Positions 20,690-28,822 of a DNA stretch of 43,239 nucleotides are shown piece by piece; within the stretch, counting starts at the first letter, position 1, and every line of letters starts with the position of its first letter. The notes below the pieces were generated by a model, which searched no databases, was not told the DNA's origin, and saw only the letters and a program-made list of their open reading frames with translations. The DNA is taken from positions 1-43,239 of the forward strand of contig JAHJCM010000136.1 of assembly GCA_018812945.1 (NCBI GenBank), read 5' to 3'. The translations under genes were made by a program, and so were the position numbers. Source of the stretch: Gammaproteobacteria bacterium (GTDB taxonomy: Bacteria; Pseudomonadota; Gammaproteobacteria; Burkholderiales; Burkholderiaceae_B).

Positions 20690-20699
20690 TATTGTGCAG

Positions 20700-21032
20700 A
20701 TGGACTACACAATCACTTACTACAGCGAATCAGTCGCAGATGAAATTTTTGCGCTCCCCGATACATTGGCCGCTCGATACATCGTTCTTACACGAAGAAT
20801 GGTAGCGTTAGGTCCAAATCTCGGGGAACCCCACACAAAGGCCTTTGGCGAAGGTTTATATGAGCTTCGGCTTAAGGGTGCAGAAGGGATTGCAAGAGTT
20901 TTCTTTTGCACTCTGGTAGGAAAGCGCATTGTCATGCTGCATAGCTTTGTAAAAAAGTCGACCAAAACCCCGGTGGCAGAAAAGACTGTAGCCCTGTCCA
21001 GAATGAAGGAGATTAAACATGCCAACACATGA
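20700..21032 (+). CDS. Type II toxin, RelE/HigB (phage Gp49-like) family
   Basis: GEGLYELRLKGAEGIARVFFCTLVGKRIVMLHSFVKKSTKTP is typical of HigB/Gp49-like toxins; overlaps the XRE antitoxin gene. Confidence 0.85.
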   Translation: MDYTITYYSESVADEIFALPDTLAARYIVLTRRMVALGPNLGEPHTKAFGEGLYELRLKGAEGIARVFFCTLVGKRIVMLHSFVKKSTKTPVAEKTVALSRMKEIKHANT

Positions 21033-21306
21033 CGAACTTGTTGAGAAATTAATGCAACGGCCTGGCGTACTTGCTGAAGTTGAACGGATTGAACGTGATG
21101 AGTCTTTGCTTCTTGATGCATTGTTAAAAGCGCGGCAGGAAGCAGGTCTTTCCCAAGCACAAGTGGCTGAACGTATGGGAACTCAGGCACCAGCGGTGGC
21201 AAGGCTTGAGCGATCCCTTGCAACAGGGAAACACTCGCCTTCTGTAGCAACACTGCGCAAGTATGTTCAAGCCTGCGGCAAACGTTTAATTTTGCAGGTT
21301 GCATGA
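21019..21306 (+). CDS. XRE-family antitoxin (HigA-like)
   Basis: HTH ARQEAGLSQAQVAERMGTQAPAVARLERSLATGKHSPSVATLRKYVQACGKRL; 14-nt overlap with the toxin. Confidence 0.87.
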   Translation: MPTHDELVEKLMQRPGVLAEVERIERDESLLLDALLKARQEAGLSQAQVAERMGTQAPAVARLERSLATGKHSPSVATLRKYVQACGKRLILQVA

Positions 21307-23873: not shown

Positions 23874-23947
23874 TTTTTTTAACATGAAACCACTATCATG
23901 TTAAAAAAATCGAATATTTTTAACACGTTGCAGGTGTCATGTTAAAA
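23874..23947. promoter_or_regulatory. Array of four TTTTTAACATGA/TCATGTTAAAAA half-sites upstream of, and overlapping, the fic start codon
   Basis: Perfect 14-nt arms TTTTTTTAACATGA (23874-23887) and TCATGTTAAAAAAA (23896-23909), then TTTTTAACACG (23917-23927) and TCATGTTAAAA (23937-23947). Confidence 0.75.
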
Positions 23948-25027
23948 GCAAGCTACAACATTCCCCCAATGCCGCCCCCTGAGTTTAATCAGGACGATCC
24001 CGCCATTTTGAAAGCCTTGGCTGCAGCGCACAGGCATCTTGCAGAGCTAAAGGGCTGTGCCAAAAGCATTCCCAATCAAGCAATCCTGATTGACACCTTG
24101 ACACTCCAGGAAGCTAAAGCCAGCTCTGAAATTGAAAGTTACGTTACCACGCAAGACGAACTCTTTCAGGCTGATTTGCAACTTGCTGACTGGGTATCGC
24201 CAGCCAGCAAGGAGGTATCGCGTTATCGGGAAGCCTTGAAATATGGTTTTGCGAAAATGCAAGCCAATCAAGGCCTACTTACCAACAGCACATTAATCGC
24301 GCTATTTCAATTATTAAAGAATAGCGCTGACGGTTTTCGTCACATGCCGGGCACTGTGCTTAAAAACGATCGAACAGGTAACACGGTTTTTGTTCCGCCG
24401 CAGAGTGCCAATGAAATTCAGCAACACATGGACCATCTGGAGCGCTTTATCAATACGCCAGAAGATGTTGATCCTCTGATTAAAATGGCGCTTATTCACC
24501 ATCAGTTCGAGAGTATTCACCCATTTAGTGATGGCAACGGGCGAATCGGCAGAATATTGTGCGTGCTGTATCTGACGCAAACAAGCTTGCTGGATATCCC
24601 GATTCTTTATCTTTCCAGATACATCAATCAGAACAAATCCGATTACTACCGACTTCTTCAAATTGTAAGAGACCAAGGTCAATGGCATGAGTGGGTGTTA
24701 TTCATGCTGCAAGCAGTAGCGGTGACAGCTAGAAGCACTGTGGACTTGGTAGAAGGTATGCGTGTGTTGATGGCAATTACCAAACAGAAAATGAGAAAAG
24801 AACTTCCGAATCTTTATTCGCAAGACTTGCTCAACAACCTTTTCAGGCACCCGTATACCCGAATCGAATTTGTGCAAAACGACCTGGGTGTTTCACGTCA
24901 AACAGCAGCGAAGTATTTACGCGAACTTGTTAGCAAGGGAATTGTTCTGGAACACGCGCAAGGTAAGCATGTTTATTTCATCAATCAGCCACTTGTGAGT
25001 TTGCTGAGTCAGGACGAAATTCAATAG
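23939..25027 (+). CDS. Fic family protein (class II-like, N-terminal inhibitory helix) with C-terminal winged HTH
   Basis: HPFSDGNGRIGR Fic motif; inhibitory helix-like EAKASSEIES; C-terminal NDLGVSRQTAAKYLRELVSKGIV. Confidence 0.93.
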   Translation: MLKASYNIPPMPPPEFNQDDPAILKALAAAHRHLAELKGCAKSIPNQAILIDTLTLQEAKASSEIESYVTTQDELFQADLQLADWVSPASKEVSRYREALKYGFAKMQANQGLLTNSTLIALFQLLKNSADGFRHMPGTVLKNDRTGNTVFVPPQSANEIQQHMDHLERFINTPEDVDPLIKMALIHHQFESIHPFSDGNGRIGRILCVLYLTQTSLLDIPILYLSRYINQNKSDYYRLLQIVRDQGQWHEWVLFMLQAVAVTARSTVDLVEGMRVLMAITKQKMRKELPNLYSQDLLNNLFRHPYTRIEFVQNDLGVSRQTAAKYLRELVSKGIVLEHAQGKHVYFINQPLVSLLSQDEIQ

Positions 25028-25265
25028 GAAAGGCTCGGGCAAACTAGCTTCAATAGACCGAGATGACGTGATGCAAAAGAATCGACCGAAGCGGATAGTA
25101 GGACCGACGGCGGGAATGTGTGACAAATAACCAGGGTTTATTTTTCATCCCGTTCATGCAATGCTTAGCAACTATTTGAAATAGCTAAGTTAAAGAAATA
25201 ATTTGCGATGTTCGGATAAATGGATATCGCCGTTATTGTTCGATAAATCAAGTTAGAGTGAAAAT

Positions 25266-26045
25266 ATGGATAGTGCATACTTAAAAGTAAAACGTGCAGA
25301 AAAACATCTTACTGAACTTAGTCAGATATTTAAGAGAAGTAACCCATTTGGCTATTATTTAGAAACTAATTGCAAAACTGGTGAAAGAGCAACATTCGCA
25401 AAGAGAGACGCGGAAGTTGCTAATGAAGCAGCCATTATAATTGGTGATGTTCTTCATAACTTAAGATCAGCCATTGATCACGCATATTGGAACTGTACCG
25501 AGAAGCACGCAAAGTCGGACGGAGAAAGAAGAAACATTCAATTTCCCATTACTTCGACAGAAACTGCACTCAGAGATTCCGTTTTACCTGGCCTACCATC
25601 AAGAGTTTCTCAAGATTTCGCAAATGCACTTGCAAGCCTTAAGCCATACAGGGATGGTGGAAACTTGCTTATTTGCGCCATCCATGACTTGGATGTAATG
25701 GACAAACATAAGCTATTAGTCCCAACTGGAAATTTTACAAAAATCAATAGTGCAATGATTCAGAGGTTGGTTCCTGATTTCCCTTCTGGGCTAATTGATT
25801 GTGGCGCAGGTAACTGCTATCGGGATGTGGTGTGGAGGGTACAACCCATGACATGGACGCAAAGGAGAAAAGCCAAAATACCTCCGTCAAATATAATTGA
25901 GCAGGAACTCGATGTACCAGTTGAAATCGTTATTAGTGACATAGATCCAACAAAGCCAGCAATTCAAACTCTTCAAGAGCTAATCGATTTAACAAAATGT
26001 GCAATACAAACCCTTTACTTGGGTGCTGGTATAAATTTTGATTGA
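25266..26045 (+). CDS. Gene-cassette-borne protein of unknown function
   Basis: 259-aa ORF with GDVLHNLRSAIDHAYWNC; stop codon 3 nt before an attC-like site; AT-rich relative to flanks. Confidence 0.7.
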   Translation: MDSAYLKVKRAEKHLTELSQIFKRSNPFGYYLETNCKTGERATFAKRDAEVANEAAIIIGDVLHNLRSAIDHAYWNCTEKHAKSDGERRNIQFPITSTETALRDSVLPGLPSRVSQDFANALASLKPYRDGGNLLICAIHDLDVMDKHKLLVPTGNFTKINSAMIQRLVPDFPSGLIDCGAGNCYRDVVWRVQPMTWTQRRKAKIPPSNIIEQELDVPVEIVISDIDPTKPAIQTLQELIDLTKCAIQTLYLGAGINFD

Positions 26046-26048
26046 GCA

Positions 26049-26117
26049 CTCTAACAAACAGCTGCAGCGGATCAATTTACGCTGCGCTCCAATTGCCTGC
26101 TGAGCTGGGCGTTAGGC
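26049..26117 (+). repeat. attC-like recombination site 1 (69 nt)
   Basis: CTCTAAC...GTTAGGC ends; internal imperfect complementarity CAGCTGCAGC / GCTGAGCTG with one unpaired extra base; directly follows a stop codon and precedes the next start. Confidence 0.82.
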
Positions 26118-26122
26118 ACTAC

Positions 26123-26929
26123 ATGAAACCAAAGCAACTTAGCGGAAGCGCTCAAATGGGAACAATTGGAGCCATGGACGGAGACGGCAATATTGCAGAT
26201 CTAAGCCATGTTGTTTTTCCTATATTGCGGCAAACCTCCGATTTGAATTTTCATCTTGTTGGAACTGGGTTTTTTGTCGCCGATAACGGGATCTTTGTTA
26301 CGGCCAAACACGTCCTTATGGATGTGTTTGATCAATCTGGGAATCAAACTCATCCAATTGTTCTAATTCAGTTCCTTGGCGGCAAATATTTCATTAGAAA
26401 TATTCTTCGGTGCACCAGCCATGAAACTGCGGATATAAGCGTTGGTATCGCGGCCCAGATGAAGCACAACACGACAGGTGCGCCACTAACCAACAAAATA
26501 CTACGTCTTAGTCAACGCATCCCTCCCATCAAAGAACAAGTCTGCACTTACGCTTACCCCAAGACAGTCATCAAACACGACGTCAGGCAAGAACTGCACT
26601 TTTACCCTGATTTTTTTGAAGGAACTATTGAGGAGCATTATCTTCAAGGCCGAGATTCCGTACTCATGCCTGGGCCATGTATGCAAACAAGCATGTACAT
26701 TCATGGCGGCGCCAGTGGTGGGCCCGTTTTTGATAGCGCCGGCAAAGTTTGCGGCATAAACAGCACGGGTTTCGAAAACTCAAATCTCTCTTTTGTTACG
26801 CCAATCAGTACAATAGAAAATCTTCTGCTTTCTGAAATATTTATTCCCAGCAATAAATCGGGGCAGGTACGAGTTAGCGAGTTGATTGATGGTTCATTTG
26901 TCAGCTATGAAAAGCATCCTGGGGCTTAG
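26123..26929 (+). CDS. Trypsin-like serine protease (S1 family) in a gene cassette
   Basis: GTGFFVADNGIFVTAKHVL (His), ETADISVG (Asp), HGGASGGPVFD (Ser). Start at ATG 26123 because the longer ORF from 26042 reads through attC 1. Confidence 0.85.
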   Translation: MKPKQLSGSAQMGTIGAMDGDGNIADLSHVVFPILRQTSDLNFHLVGTGFFVADNGIFVTAKHVLMDVFDQSGNQTHPIVLIQFLGGKYFIRNILRCTSHETADISVGIAAQMKHNTTGAPLTNKILRLSQRIPPIKEQVCTYAYPKTVIKHDVRQELHFYPDFFEGTIEEHYLQGRDSVLMPGPCMQTSMYIHGGASGGPVFDSAGKVCGINSTGFENSNLSFVTPISTIENLLLSEIFIPSNKSGQVRVSELIDGSFVSYEKHPGA

Positions 26930-26941
26930 CCTAACTGGGCG
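26929..26941 (+). repeat. Possible attC remnant GCCTAACTGGGCG
   Basis: GCCTAAC fits the attC 5' core RYYYAAC and TGGGCG matches the tail of attC 1 (CTGGGCG-TTAGGC), but the central arms are absent. Confidence 0.45.
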
Positions 26942-26944
26942 ATC

Positions 26945-27334
26945 ATGCCACCCGTGAACCCTGACGAATATGGTCGTGCGCTCATGGAGCGCGCTGGAGA
27001 GGCACAGCGGCTATTGCGTGCCGAGGTCAGAGCGCCTGACTGGGAACCACAGCCCAACAGGTGCCATGAGAACGTCACGATCTGGTGTGAATCGAACCAA
27101 GGATACGTGCCTGTCCGAGGTTGGTTGTTCTTTGATCTCCCGGGATTACCGCACGCGCGCTTCGTCGCGCATTCGGCCGTGAGAACTCCTGACGGGCAGC
27201 TTTACGACATAACTCCTTCGAACGCCATGCAAGAGTATCCGTTCTTGGAAGCGCAGTTAAGCGAGGAAGACTTTGCAGACCTGGTGGAAGGGCAGGGTCG
27301 CGGCCAACTCGACCCGCGCAAGCCTTATGCATAA
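26945..27334 (+). CDS. Cassette-borne small protein with putative Cys/His/Asp residues
   Basis: RCHENVTIWCE...FVAHSAVRTPDGQLYDITPSNAMQEYP; stop codon inside the 5' core of attC 2. Confidence 0.65.
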   Translation: MPPVNPDEYGRALMERAGEAQRLLRAEVRAPDWEPQPNRCHENVTIWCESNQGYVPVRGWLFFDLPGLPHARFVAHSAVRTPDGQLYDITPSNAMQEYPFLEAQLSEEDFADLVEGQGRGQLDPRKPYA

Positions 27335-27409
27335 CATGGCAATCGACACGGACATCCTATCGGCCGGCTTTCGTCAGCCTACTGTCCGCCGGTCATTTCT
27401 ACGTTATGC
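27329..27409 (+). repeat. attC-like recombination site 2 (81 nt)
   Basis: Complementary ends GCATAAC (27329-27335) and GTTATGC (27403-27409); internal GGACA...TGTCC and GGC...GCC pairing. Confidence 0.82.
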
Positions 27410-27446
27410 ATCAGTAAGCCTTTCCACGGATTAAAACAGAGTGAGT

Positions 27447-28061
27447 ATGCGATTTTTATATGTCATGGATCCTATGTGTGCCTGGTGTTATGGGTTTCAG
27501 CCGGAGTTGGATCGGTTCCTGGAACAATATCCTTCAGCCGAGGTGGACTGGATAATGGGAGGGTTAGCGCCTGATACCAAAGAACCCATGAGCGAAAACC
27601 TGAAAGAGGCGATCTCTTCCTATTGGCATCAAATAGAAAAGGTTTCCCAAGTAACGTTTAATCACAGTTATTGGGAACGGAACACACCTTATCGTTCAAC
27701 ATACCAAGCTTGTAGAGCAGTGATAGCAGCTGAGAAGTTAGCTGCAAAAAGCTCACCAAATATGGCAAAAGCGATTCAATCTGCTTATTACCGTGAGGCC
27801 AGGAACCCGTCTTTAGATGAAACGCTGATTGATTGCGCTGGCACAATAGGGTTGTGCGAGGAGCAGTTTTTAGCTGTCCTTCACGCCAAAGAAACTGAAC
27901 TTGAGTTTCAAAAACATTTGGCAATTACAAATCATCTTCACGTTAGTGGGTTTCCCGCCCTCTTATACATCAACAAAGAGAATCAGGCTTACCCTCTAAC
28001 TCACGGTTTTTGCAAAGCTGAAGCACTTTTTGAACGTTTCAGTGCAATCGCAGAAGATTAA
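27447..28061 (+). CDS. DsbA/FrnE-like thioredoxin-fold protein (CAWC motif)
   Basis: FLYVMDPMCAWCYGFQPELDRF; late cis-Pro region HVSGFPALLYIN; located right after attC 2. Confidence 0.85.
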   Translation: MRFLYVMDPMCAWCYGFQPELDRFLEQYPSAEVDWIMGGLAPDTKEPMSENLKEAISSYWHQIEKVSQVTFNHSYWERNTPYRSTYQACRAVIAAEKLAAKSSPNMAKAIQSAYYREARNPSLDETLIDCAGTIGLCEEQFLAVLHAKETELEFQKHLAITNHLHVSGFPALLYINKENQAYPLTHGFCKAEALFERFSAIAED

Positions 28062-28063
28062 GC

Positions 28064-28086
28064 ACATAACAAGGCGTTTGAGAGCT
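28064..28086 (+). repeat. attC 5' half (truncated or degenerate): ACATAACAAGGCGTTTGAGAGC
   Basis: RYYYAAC core followed by the common attC L''-type AAGGCGTTTGAG, 2 nt after the DsbA-like stop; no convincing 3' partner. Confidence 0.55.
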
Positions 28087-28224
28087 ACTCAATAAAGCGG
28101 AGTAACATTAAACCGGCTCAACTCCACTTTGGAGACACTCGAAGCCTGATGAATTACATCCAGAATTGAACCGCCCTTCCACAAAATCCACTAAGTTATA
28201 GCAGCGCATTCGACTATTAATGCG

Positions 28225-28243
28225 TGTTGCGCAATACGCAACA
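28225..28243. promoter_or_regulatory. Inverted repeat TGTTGCG-CAATA-CGCAACA, candidate HigA operator
   Basis: Perfect 7-bp arms, 7 nt upstream of the toxin ATG. Confidence 0.55.
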
Positions 28244-28250
28244 TTCCACT

Positions 28251-28529
28251 ATGATCCTATCTTTCAAACACAAAGGGCTTCGCAAGTTCTTTGAAATTGG
28301 CAGCACCGCTGGCATTCAGGCAAATCATGCTAAACGCCTTCGCTTACAACTGGCCGCTCTGGATACCGCTGAGACCATCAACGATATGGACATTCCAGGC
28401 TTTTCACTTCATCCGCTCAAGGGCGAAATGCGTGGAAGGTGGTCTATATCAGTGAATGGTAACTGGCGCTTAACTTTTGAATTTCGTGATGGCAACGTCC
28501 ACGTGCTGGACTATGAGGATTATCACTAA
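28251..28529 (+). CDS. higB: Type II toxin, RelE/HigB family
   Basis: MILSFKHKGLRKFFEIGSTAGI...HPLKGEMRGRWSISVNGNWRLTFEF...VLDYEDYH is the canonical HigB signature. Confidence 0.93.
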   Translation: MILSFKHKGLRKFFEIGSTAGIQANHAKRLRLQLAALDTAETINDMDIPGFSLHPLKGEMRGRWSISVNGNWRLTFEFRDGNVHVLDYEDYH

Positions 28530-28822
28530 TGAACATGCACAACCCACCCCACCCTGGTGAATTCATCACGGGCGTTTACCTTGAGCCACATGGAATCAGC
28601 GGGCGAGAACTTGCAGAGAAACTGGACGTAGCGCCCTCTACACTCAGCCGTATTCTCAACGGTAGCAGCCGGGTAACACCGGAAATGGCGCTTCGGCTTT
28701 CCAAGGCGATCGGGCGATCACCCGAAAGTTGGCTCGCCATGCAAGACGCTCACGATTTGTGGATAGCACGGAAGAATGTGGATCTACGCCGTGTAGGCAA
28801 GCTTCGACTAGCAAATGTCTGA
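28529..28822 (+). CDS. higA: HigA-family antitoxin
   Basis: NPPHPGEFITGVYLEPHGISGRELAEKLDVAPSTLSRILNGSSRVTPEMALRLSKAIGRSPESWLAMQ; TAATG overlap with the toxin. Confidence 0.94.
   Translation: MNMHNPPHPGEFITGVYLEPHGISGRELAEKLDVAPSTLSRILNGSSRVTPEMALRLSKAIGRSPESWLAMQDAHDLWIARKNVDLRRVGKLRLANV

Follow-up and report, generated by a model that had tools for sequence, protein, structure and literature searches.

An integron cassette array without integrase gene in Limnobacter, headed by an attI site that lies in a dispersed repeat

The 43,239-nt stretch of DNA analysed here (the window) is the entire contig C8 of an assembly of 3.09 Mb (253 contigs, ~92% complete) from a member of the genus Limnobacter (Burkholderiales), the closest genomes being G404, G400 and G403. 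It carries a genuine integron cassette array without an integrase gene, the features of which are listed in Table 1. The original prediction, made from the sequence alone, had labelled this region a CALIN, i.e. a cluster of attC sites lacking integrase. The label holds in so far as two attC sites lie on one strand, 1.2 kb apart, and neither the contig nor the assembly contains intI, but it misses the attI site at the head of the array (25207-25256). Since this attI lies within a dispersed repeat of ~268 bp, the locus is a solo-attI platform, more than attC debris.

Table 1. Positions in the window of the attI repeat, the cassettes and the attC sites
Feature	Position	Strand	Description
Solo-attI repeat, 'long' type	25079..25256	+	both ends kept, ~90 bp missing between 25119 and 25120
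attI core	25207..25256	+	crossover between G25252 and T25253; 94-96% identical to intI-adjacent attI
Cassette 1	25253..26111	+	ORF 25266-26045, 259 aa, no known family
attC of cassette 1	26049-26117	+	R1 25.1 bits, E 4.7e-4, model positions 1-68/68; final 6 bases are part of cassette 2
Cassette 2	26112..26941	+	trypsin-like protease ORF 26123-26929; Pfam Trypsin_2, E 6.7e-12
Cassette 3	26942..27403	+	ORF 26945-27334, 129 aa, no known family; R'' GCATAAC at 27329
attC of cassette 3	27329-27409	+	R1 33.6 bits, E 4e-6, model positions 1-68/68; final 6 bases are part of cassette 4
Cassette 4	27404..28131	+	DsbA-like ORF 27441-28061; Pfam Thioredoxin_5 / DSBA; right end approximate, set by eye

The attC sites were assessed with a covariance model, R1, built from 26 attC sites adjoining intI in other Burkholderiales families, with no Limnobacter sequence in the training set. 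In the training sites both helices covary and 94% of the cells are paired, a level reached by none of 500 shuffles (slid controls gave 18-48%). When the window was scanned with R1 without filters, the two best matches, both above chance and both on the + strand, were precisely the two sites that had been singled out as clear attC sites; the third-best match in the window reached only 11.9 bits (E 0.74). Folding gave -14.2 kcal/mol for the bottom strand of 27329-27409 against -9.3 for the top strand (z versus shuffles of -2.4), and -12.7 against -12.1 kcal/mol for 26049-26117 (z of -1.5). Both bottom strands form an attC hairpin whose L arm contains unpaired bases. The predicted layout, with R''/R' and L''/L' pairing, an extrahelical base and a bottom-strand fold, is thus borne out by R1 and folding together, the z value being weak at 26049-26117, a site for which folding by itself is weak support. 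Nothing in the window was matched in an Rfam scan, and a regular-expression scan for attC over the genome gave no match in the window; the covariance model was used instead.

Cassette limits were read from the expectation that the first bases of a cassette are complementary to its own R'' box. Cassette 1 starts with GTTAGAG at 25252, which pairs in 7 of 7 positions with its R'' CTCTAAC at 26049. For cassette 2 the same reasoning changes the status of the motif at 26929, which had been taken for a scar: GCCTAAC (26929-26935) is complementary, 7 of 7, to the start of the same cassette, GTTAGGC at 26111, and is therefore the R'' box of the protease cassette. Only this box and a few bases are left of its attC; the hairpin is lost and there is no R1 score. 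Cassette 3 has an eroded left boundary. Cassette 4 starts with GTTATGC at 27403, complementary in 6 of 7 positions to R'' ACATAAC at 28064. The partial site proposed at 28064 has this R'' box, but its other half gives no R1 score and relatives differ in the sequence downstream of it. As a full attC it was rejected, since R1 gave no score in the window, nor in relatives when the limit was relaxed. It is a decayed attC that has kept its R'' box, and this last attC of the array differs between relatives.

The first three cassettes are rare, with 0 or 1 homologue per cassette among 397 other Burkholderiales genomes (E-value limit of 1e-30 for the protease): none for cassette 1, whose ORF has no Pfam or NCBIfam match, and a single weak one for cassette 3. 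The protease of cassette 2 (26123-26929) is similar to the protease portion of PADLOC RT-Protease_XI (E 7e-12), the reverse transcriptase portion being absent. The DsbA cassette is also present in five other Limnobacter-group species, where homology begins at CGTTATG following unrelated sequence. Relatives of the DsbA-like protein (27441-28061) that are 54-77% identical occur in Photobacterium, Vibrio, Alteromonas and Pseudoalteromonas; no R1 attC match was found near these genes, whose attC type R1 may miss.

It had been proposed that cassette boundaries explain the odd set of co-oriented genes in this region. They do so for four genes; the Fic gene (23939-25027) is outside the array and the status of higBA (28224-28822) as a cassette is unsupported. 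The Fic protein, of SoFic type, is encoded just left of the array, and further left a Gp49/RelE-type toxin is paired with an Xre antitoxin (20694-21306): the left flank is a toxin-rich variable locus. The array is immediately followed by the HigB/HigA toxin-antitoxin pair, of which several Limnobacter species have copies, complete or truncated, at this locus.

The statement that the window contains no tyrosine recombinase agrees with a TIGR02249 search of the whole assembly. The matches listed were only on C82 and C103; they are fragments of two other tyrosine recombinases, below cut-off, that we take to be XerC/XerD-like from their length and score. A tblastn search of the window with Limnobacter IntI yielded no meaningful match. 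As no intI was detected in the assembly, the array is classed as a CALIN, with the reservation that, at 92% completeness, intI could be absent from the assembly though present in the genome. In IntegronFinder 2.0, a CALIN is defined by attC sites and the absence of intI, and attI is sought only in class 1 integrons (PMC9024848). As there, the array has at least two close attC sites on one strand (26049-26117 and 27329-27409, as found with R1) and no neighbouring integron integrase; unlike there, its head is an attI within a dispersed repeat, a feature outside the definition. A complete integron would bring intI, attI and attC together; here attI and attC are present and intI is absent.

The attI site was recognized from a DNA search of the cassette region across the genus, in which the sequence left of cassette 1 turned out to be a repeated element. 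The intI-adjacent attI to which its core is so close (Table 1) is, in G412, G400 and G409, the stretch that separates intI from the first cassette, so that these homologues have the position, and the G/TT crossover (the slash marking the break), expected of an attI. The window core stands in the same position to cassette 1, with no intI beside it. When ~48 attI copies were aligned, conservation stopped abruptly at AAG/TTAG and the sequence beyond differed almost always, the exception being three orthologous copies that were identical throughout. This abrupt stop is the integron crossover, hence cassette 1 sits in attI.

In full copies, attI forms the right end of the ~268-bp repeat. Two classes of copies were distinguished. 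Short copies share only the core with the window copy; long copies add a left part of ~220 bp that ends sharply on its left (consensus TTTTCGGCCGAAGCGGACATTAGGACTGACGGC), beyond which the flanks are not conserved. The long class numbers 30 copies in 20 left-flank clusters (~20 loci), several per genome; none has intI, and there is no LexA box near the long copies checked. The window copy belongs to this class: positions 25120-25256 are 80-91% identical to most of the dispersed Limnobacter copies, and its left end (25079-25119) matches the consensus at 31 of 41 positions (controls, at most 23). In the short class, five members have intI or its remains, and some of the others retain a LexA box. 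In G412 and G400, intI is divergent and a LexA box (CTGT-N8-ACAG) lies between it and the attI core. The short copy of our own genome, on C190, has kept attI and the LexA box CTGTTTATTTGTACAG without intI; beside them, in the place expected for intI, is a HipBA-like gene pair, named by eye (L134:14025-15652, L202:1902-2029). No consensus sigma-70 promoter was seen in the window repeat, and the best matches across copies are not at a shared position. The repeat was not found in plasmids or phages and the order sample outside Limnobacter yielded one 24-bp match only, which so far confines it, as judged from these searches, to Limnobacter.

Around 41 attI copies, up to ~5 kb downstream and ~1.7 kb upstream of each were scanned for attC: all 72 matches were downstream of attI and on the same strand, and neither the upstream side nor the opposite strand gave any. 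Downstream attC sites were present for 14 of the 27 long copies scanned (22 sites; the other 13 had none) and for 12 of 14 short copies (50 sites); two G411 copies without the attI core had no attC match. In G412, assembled as a single contig, an intact intI coexists with three solo attI, with 4, 1 and 0 attC matches downstream, so that assembly breaks do not explain the pattern. Our own genome contains at least four other attC arrays without intI, on C75 (L132:4971-13743), C105 (L133:11180-13974), C190 (L134:16882-19758) and C189 (L135:10085), a lower bound because the genome-wide R1 search scored 150 of 1006 candidates and did not list the window sites. The C190 array is headed by the canonical short attI and the C189 array by a second long-type solo attI. 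Beside the latter array, two adjacent genes (L135:10193-11849) each code for a CAP12/Pycsar-type TIR domain (Pfam E 1e-24 and 3e-35), possibly a phage defence cargo.

The locus of the window, between DUF6795 genes and lipoprotein-like/TauE genes, has a solo attI in our genome and in G402, G403, G404 and G407. It is also present at this locus in G400, where its left end coincides with the contig end, and a G401 copy groups with these by its left flank. The cassettes between attI and DsbA vary among species. G403 and G404 have one common cassette beside DsbA, for which homology of 98.6% begins exactly at the R' of the attC predicted by R1, and their upstream cassettes differ. Intergenic sequences fixed in relatives without cassette turnover, which would have spoken against an array, were looked for; instead, the cassettes turn over and, in the sequences compared, the exchanges are bounded by G/TT. 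Part of this turnover could be due to transfer of the whole locus by homologous recombination. Cassettes are also shared between intI-type and solo-attI arrays: the DsbA cassette occurs in the intI-deleted array of G409; in G409, too, one solo attI is directly followed by a cassette known from the intI array of G412 (88%); and over 272 bp our C190 array is 98.5% identical to the solo locus of G400.

Among 17 Limnobacter genomes, intI was found above cut-off in three. G412 and G400 have a full-length gene, G407 and G399 a partial one. On C106 of G409 (L139:5798-6327) intI is a fossil, in which residues 1-158 are joined to the last 19, still beside attI and an attC array. At the level of sequence, repeated loss or decay of intI within Limnobacter is thus evident. 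The closest relatives G403 and G404 are likewise without intI, which means that recent turnover there requires an IntI lost later or supplied from outside.

The reading that we consider probable is that the dispersed solo attI sites were loaded in trans by one chromosomal IntI, since lost repeatedly. IntI would be produced at the canonical integron under the control of the LexA box and would excise cassettes as circles; the attC of a circle would then be recombined with a solo attI elsewhere in the chromosome, the first cassette being inserted at the right end of the ~268-bp repeat, and a single integrase could in this way feed several arrays. Subsequent loss of intI from our genome would have left the array frozen. 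Points that speak against this reading are the 13 long copies with no attC match downstream, the share that whole-locus transfer could have in the turnover, the incompleteness of the assembly and the lack of intI in G403 and G404. One alternative is an ordinary CALIN formed by loss in cis, a complete integron having once stood here and intI and its promoter having been deleted, with attI and a few cassettes left behind. Decay of intI is known in the genus, by internal deletion in G409 and as partial genes in G407 and G399, and our C190 is a case of attI without intI. However, all 30 long copies share the same sharp-ended left part, which is not the intI promoter region and contains neither LexA box nor intI remnant, and independent events at 20 loci would not leave an identical left part. 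Loss in cis is already disfavoured on these grounds and we regard it as unlikely.

The 268-bp unit could also be viewed as a cassette-like element ending in attI, circularised and inserted by IntI, which would thereby spread docking sites. Its right end is exactly the crossover, and mobile integrons contain recombining delta-attI cassettes, i.e. cassettes with a terminal partial attI (PMC12901181). But no conserved flank is found to its left among non-orthologous copies, the left end TTTTCGGCCGAAGCGG shows no obvious G/TT site, and the copies head arrays, none having been seen inside one; the order expected of such a cassette, an ORF followed by attI with a recombination site at the left, is not what is observed. 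A transfer of this sort appears quite improbable. Least credible, with hardly any likelihood left to it, is off-target insertion at ordinary chromosomal sites of the attG type, the sequence left of cassette 1 being merely attI-like. Insertion by IntI at non-classical sites is documented in work cited in PMC12901181 and PMC12444791, and attG sites, as far as those citations describe them, resemble the present case in having cassettes outside the canonical integron. They diverge from attI by definition, whereas the insertion site here is an attI homologue that matches the intI-adjacent attI at 94-96% over 50 bp and is repeated genus-wide; such homology, on sequence grounds, contradicts an attG origin.

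Loading in trans can be set beside two known situations. In the sedentary chromosomal integrons of Xanthomonas, intI is frequently lost; CALINs in that genus occupy conserved loci away from intI and are stated to be mobilisable in trans (PMC12444791); their positions are unexplained there, whereas in Limnobacter a common attI repeat marks them. The nearest precedent for an attI apart from intI comes from the delta-attI cassettes of class 1 and class 2 integrons, whose attI is used by IntI (PMC12901181). In those cassettes a partial attI stands in for attC behind a gene within an array, whereas in Limnobacter a near-complete attI heads separate chromosomal arrays. In the open-access literature, to which the search was confined (subscription papers lay outside it), we found no report of orphan, dispersed or duplicated attI and no paper on Limnobacter integrons.

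In genome surveys, CALINs roughly equal complete integrons in number (PMC9024848); they are usually attributed to loss of the integrase or to off-target insertion. A third, testable route would be offered by a dispersed attI repeat, by way of docking sites loaded in trans; present tools cannot see it, since they look for attI only in class 1. If true, this route would account for CALINs at fixed loci common to species, and one integrase could place cassettes in several chromosomal contexts. We lean, by a modest preference, towards seeing Limnobacter as having a multi-locus integron, with one SOS-controlled integrase and several docking sites, in which attI, as part of a ~268-bp repeat, would have spread independently of intI and the CALINs would be outposts, not ruins.
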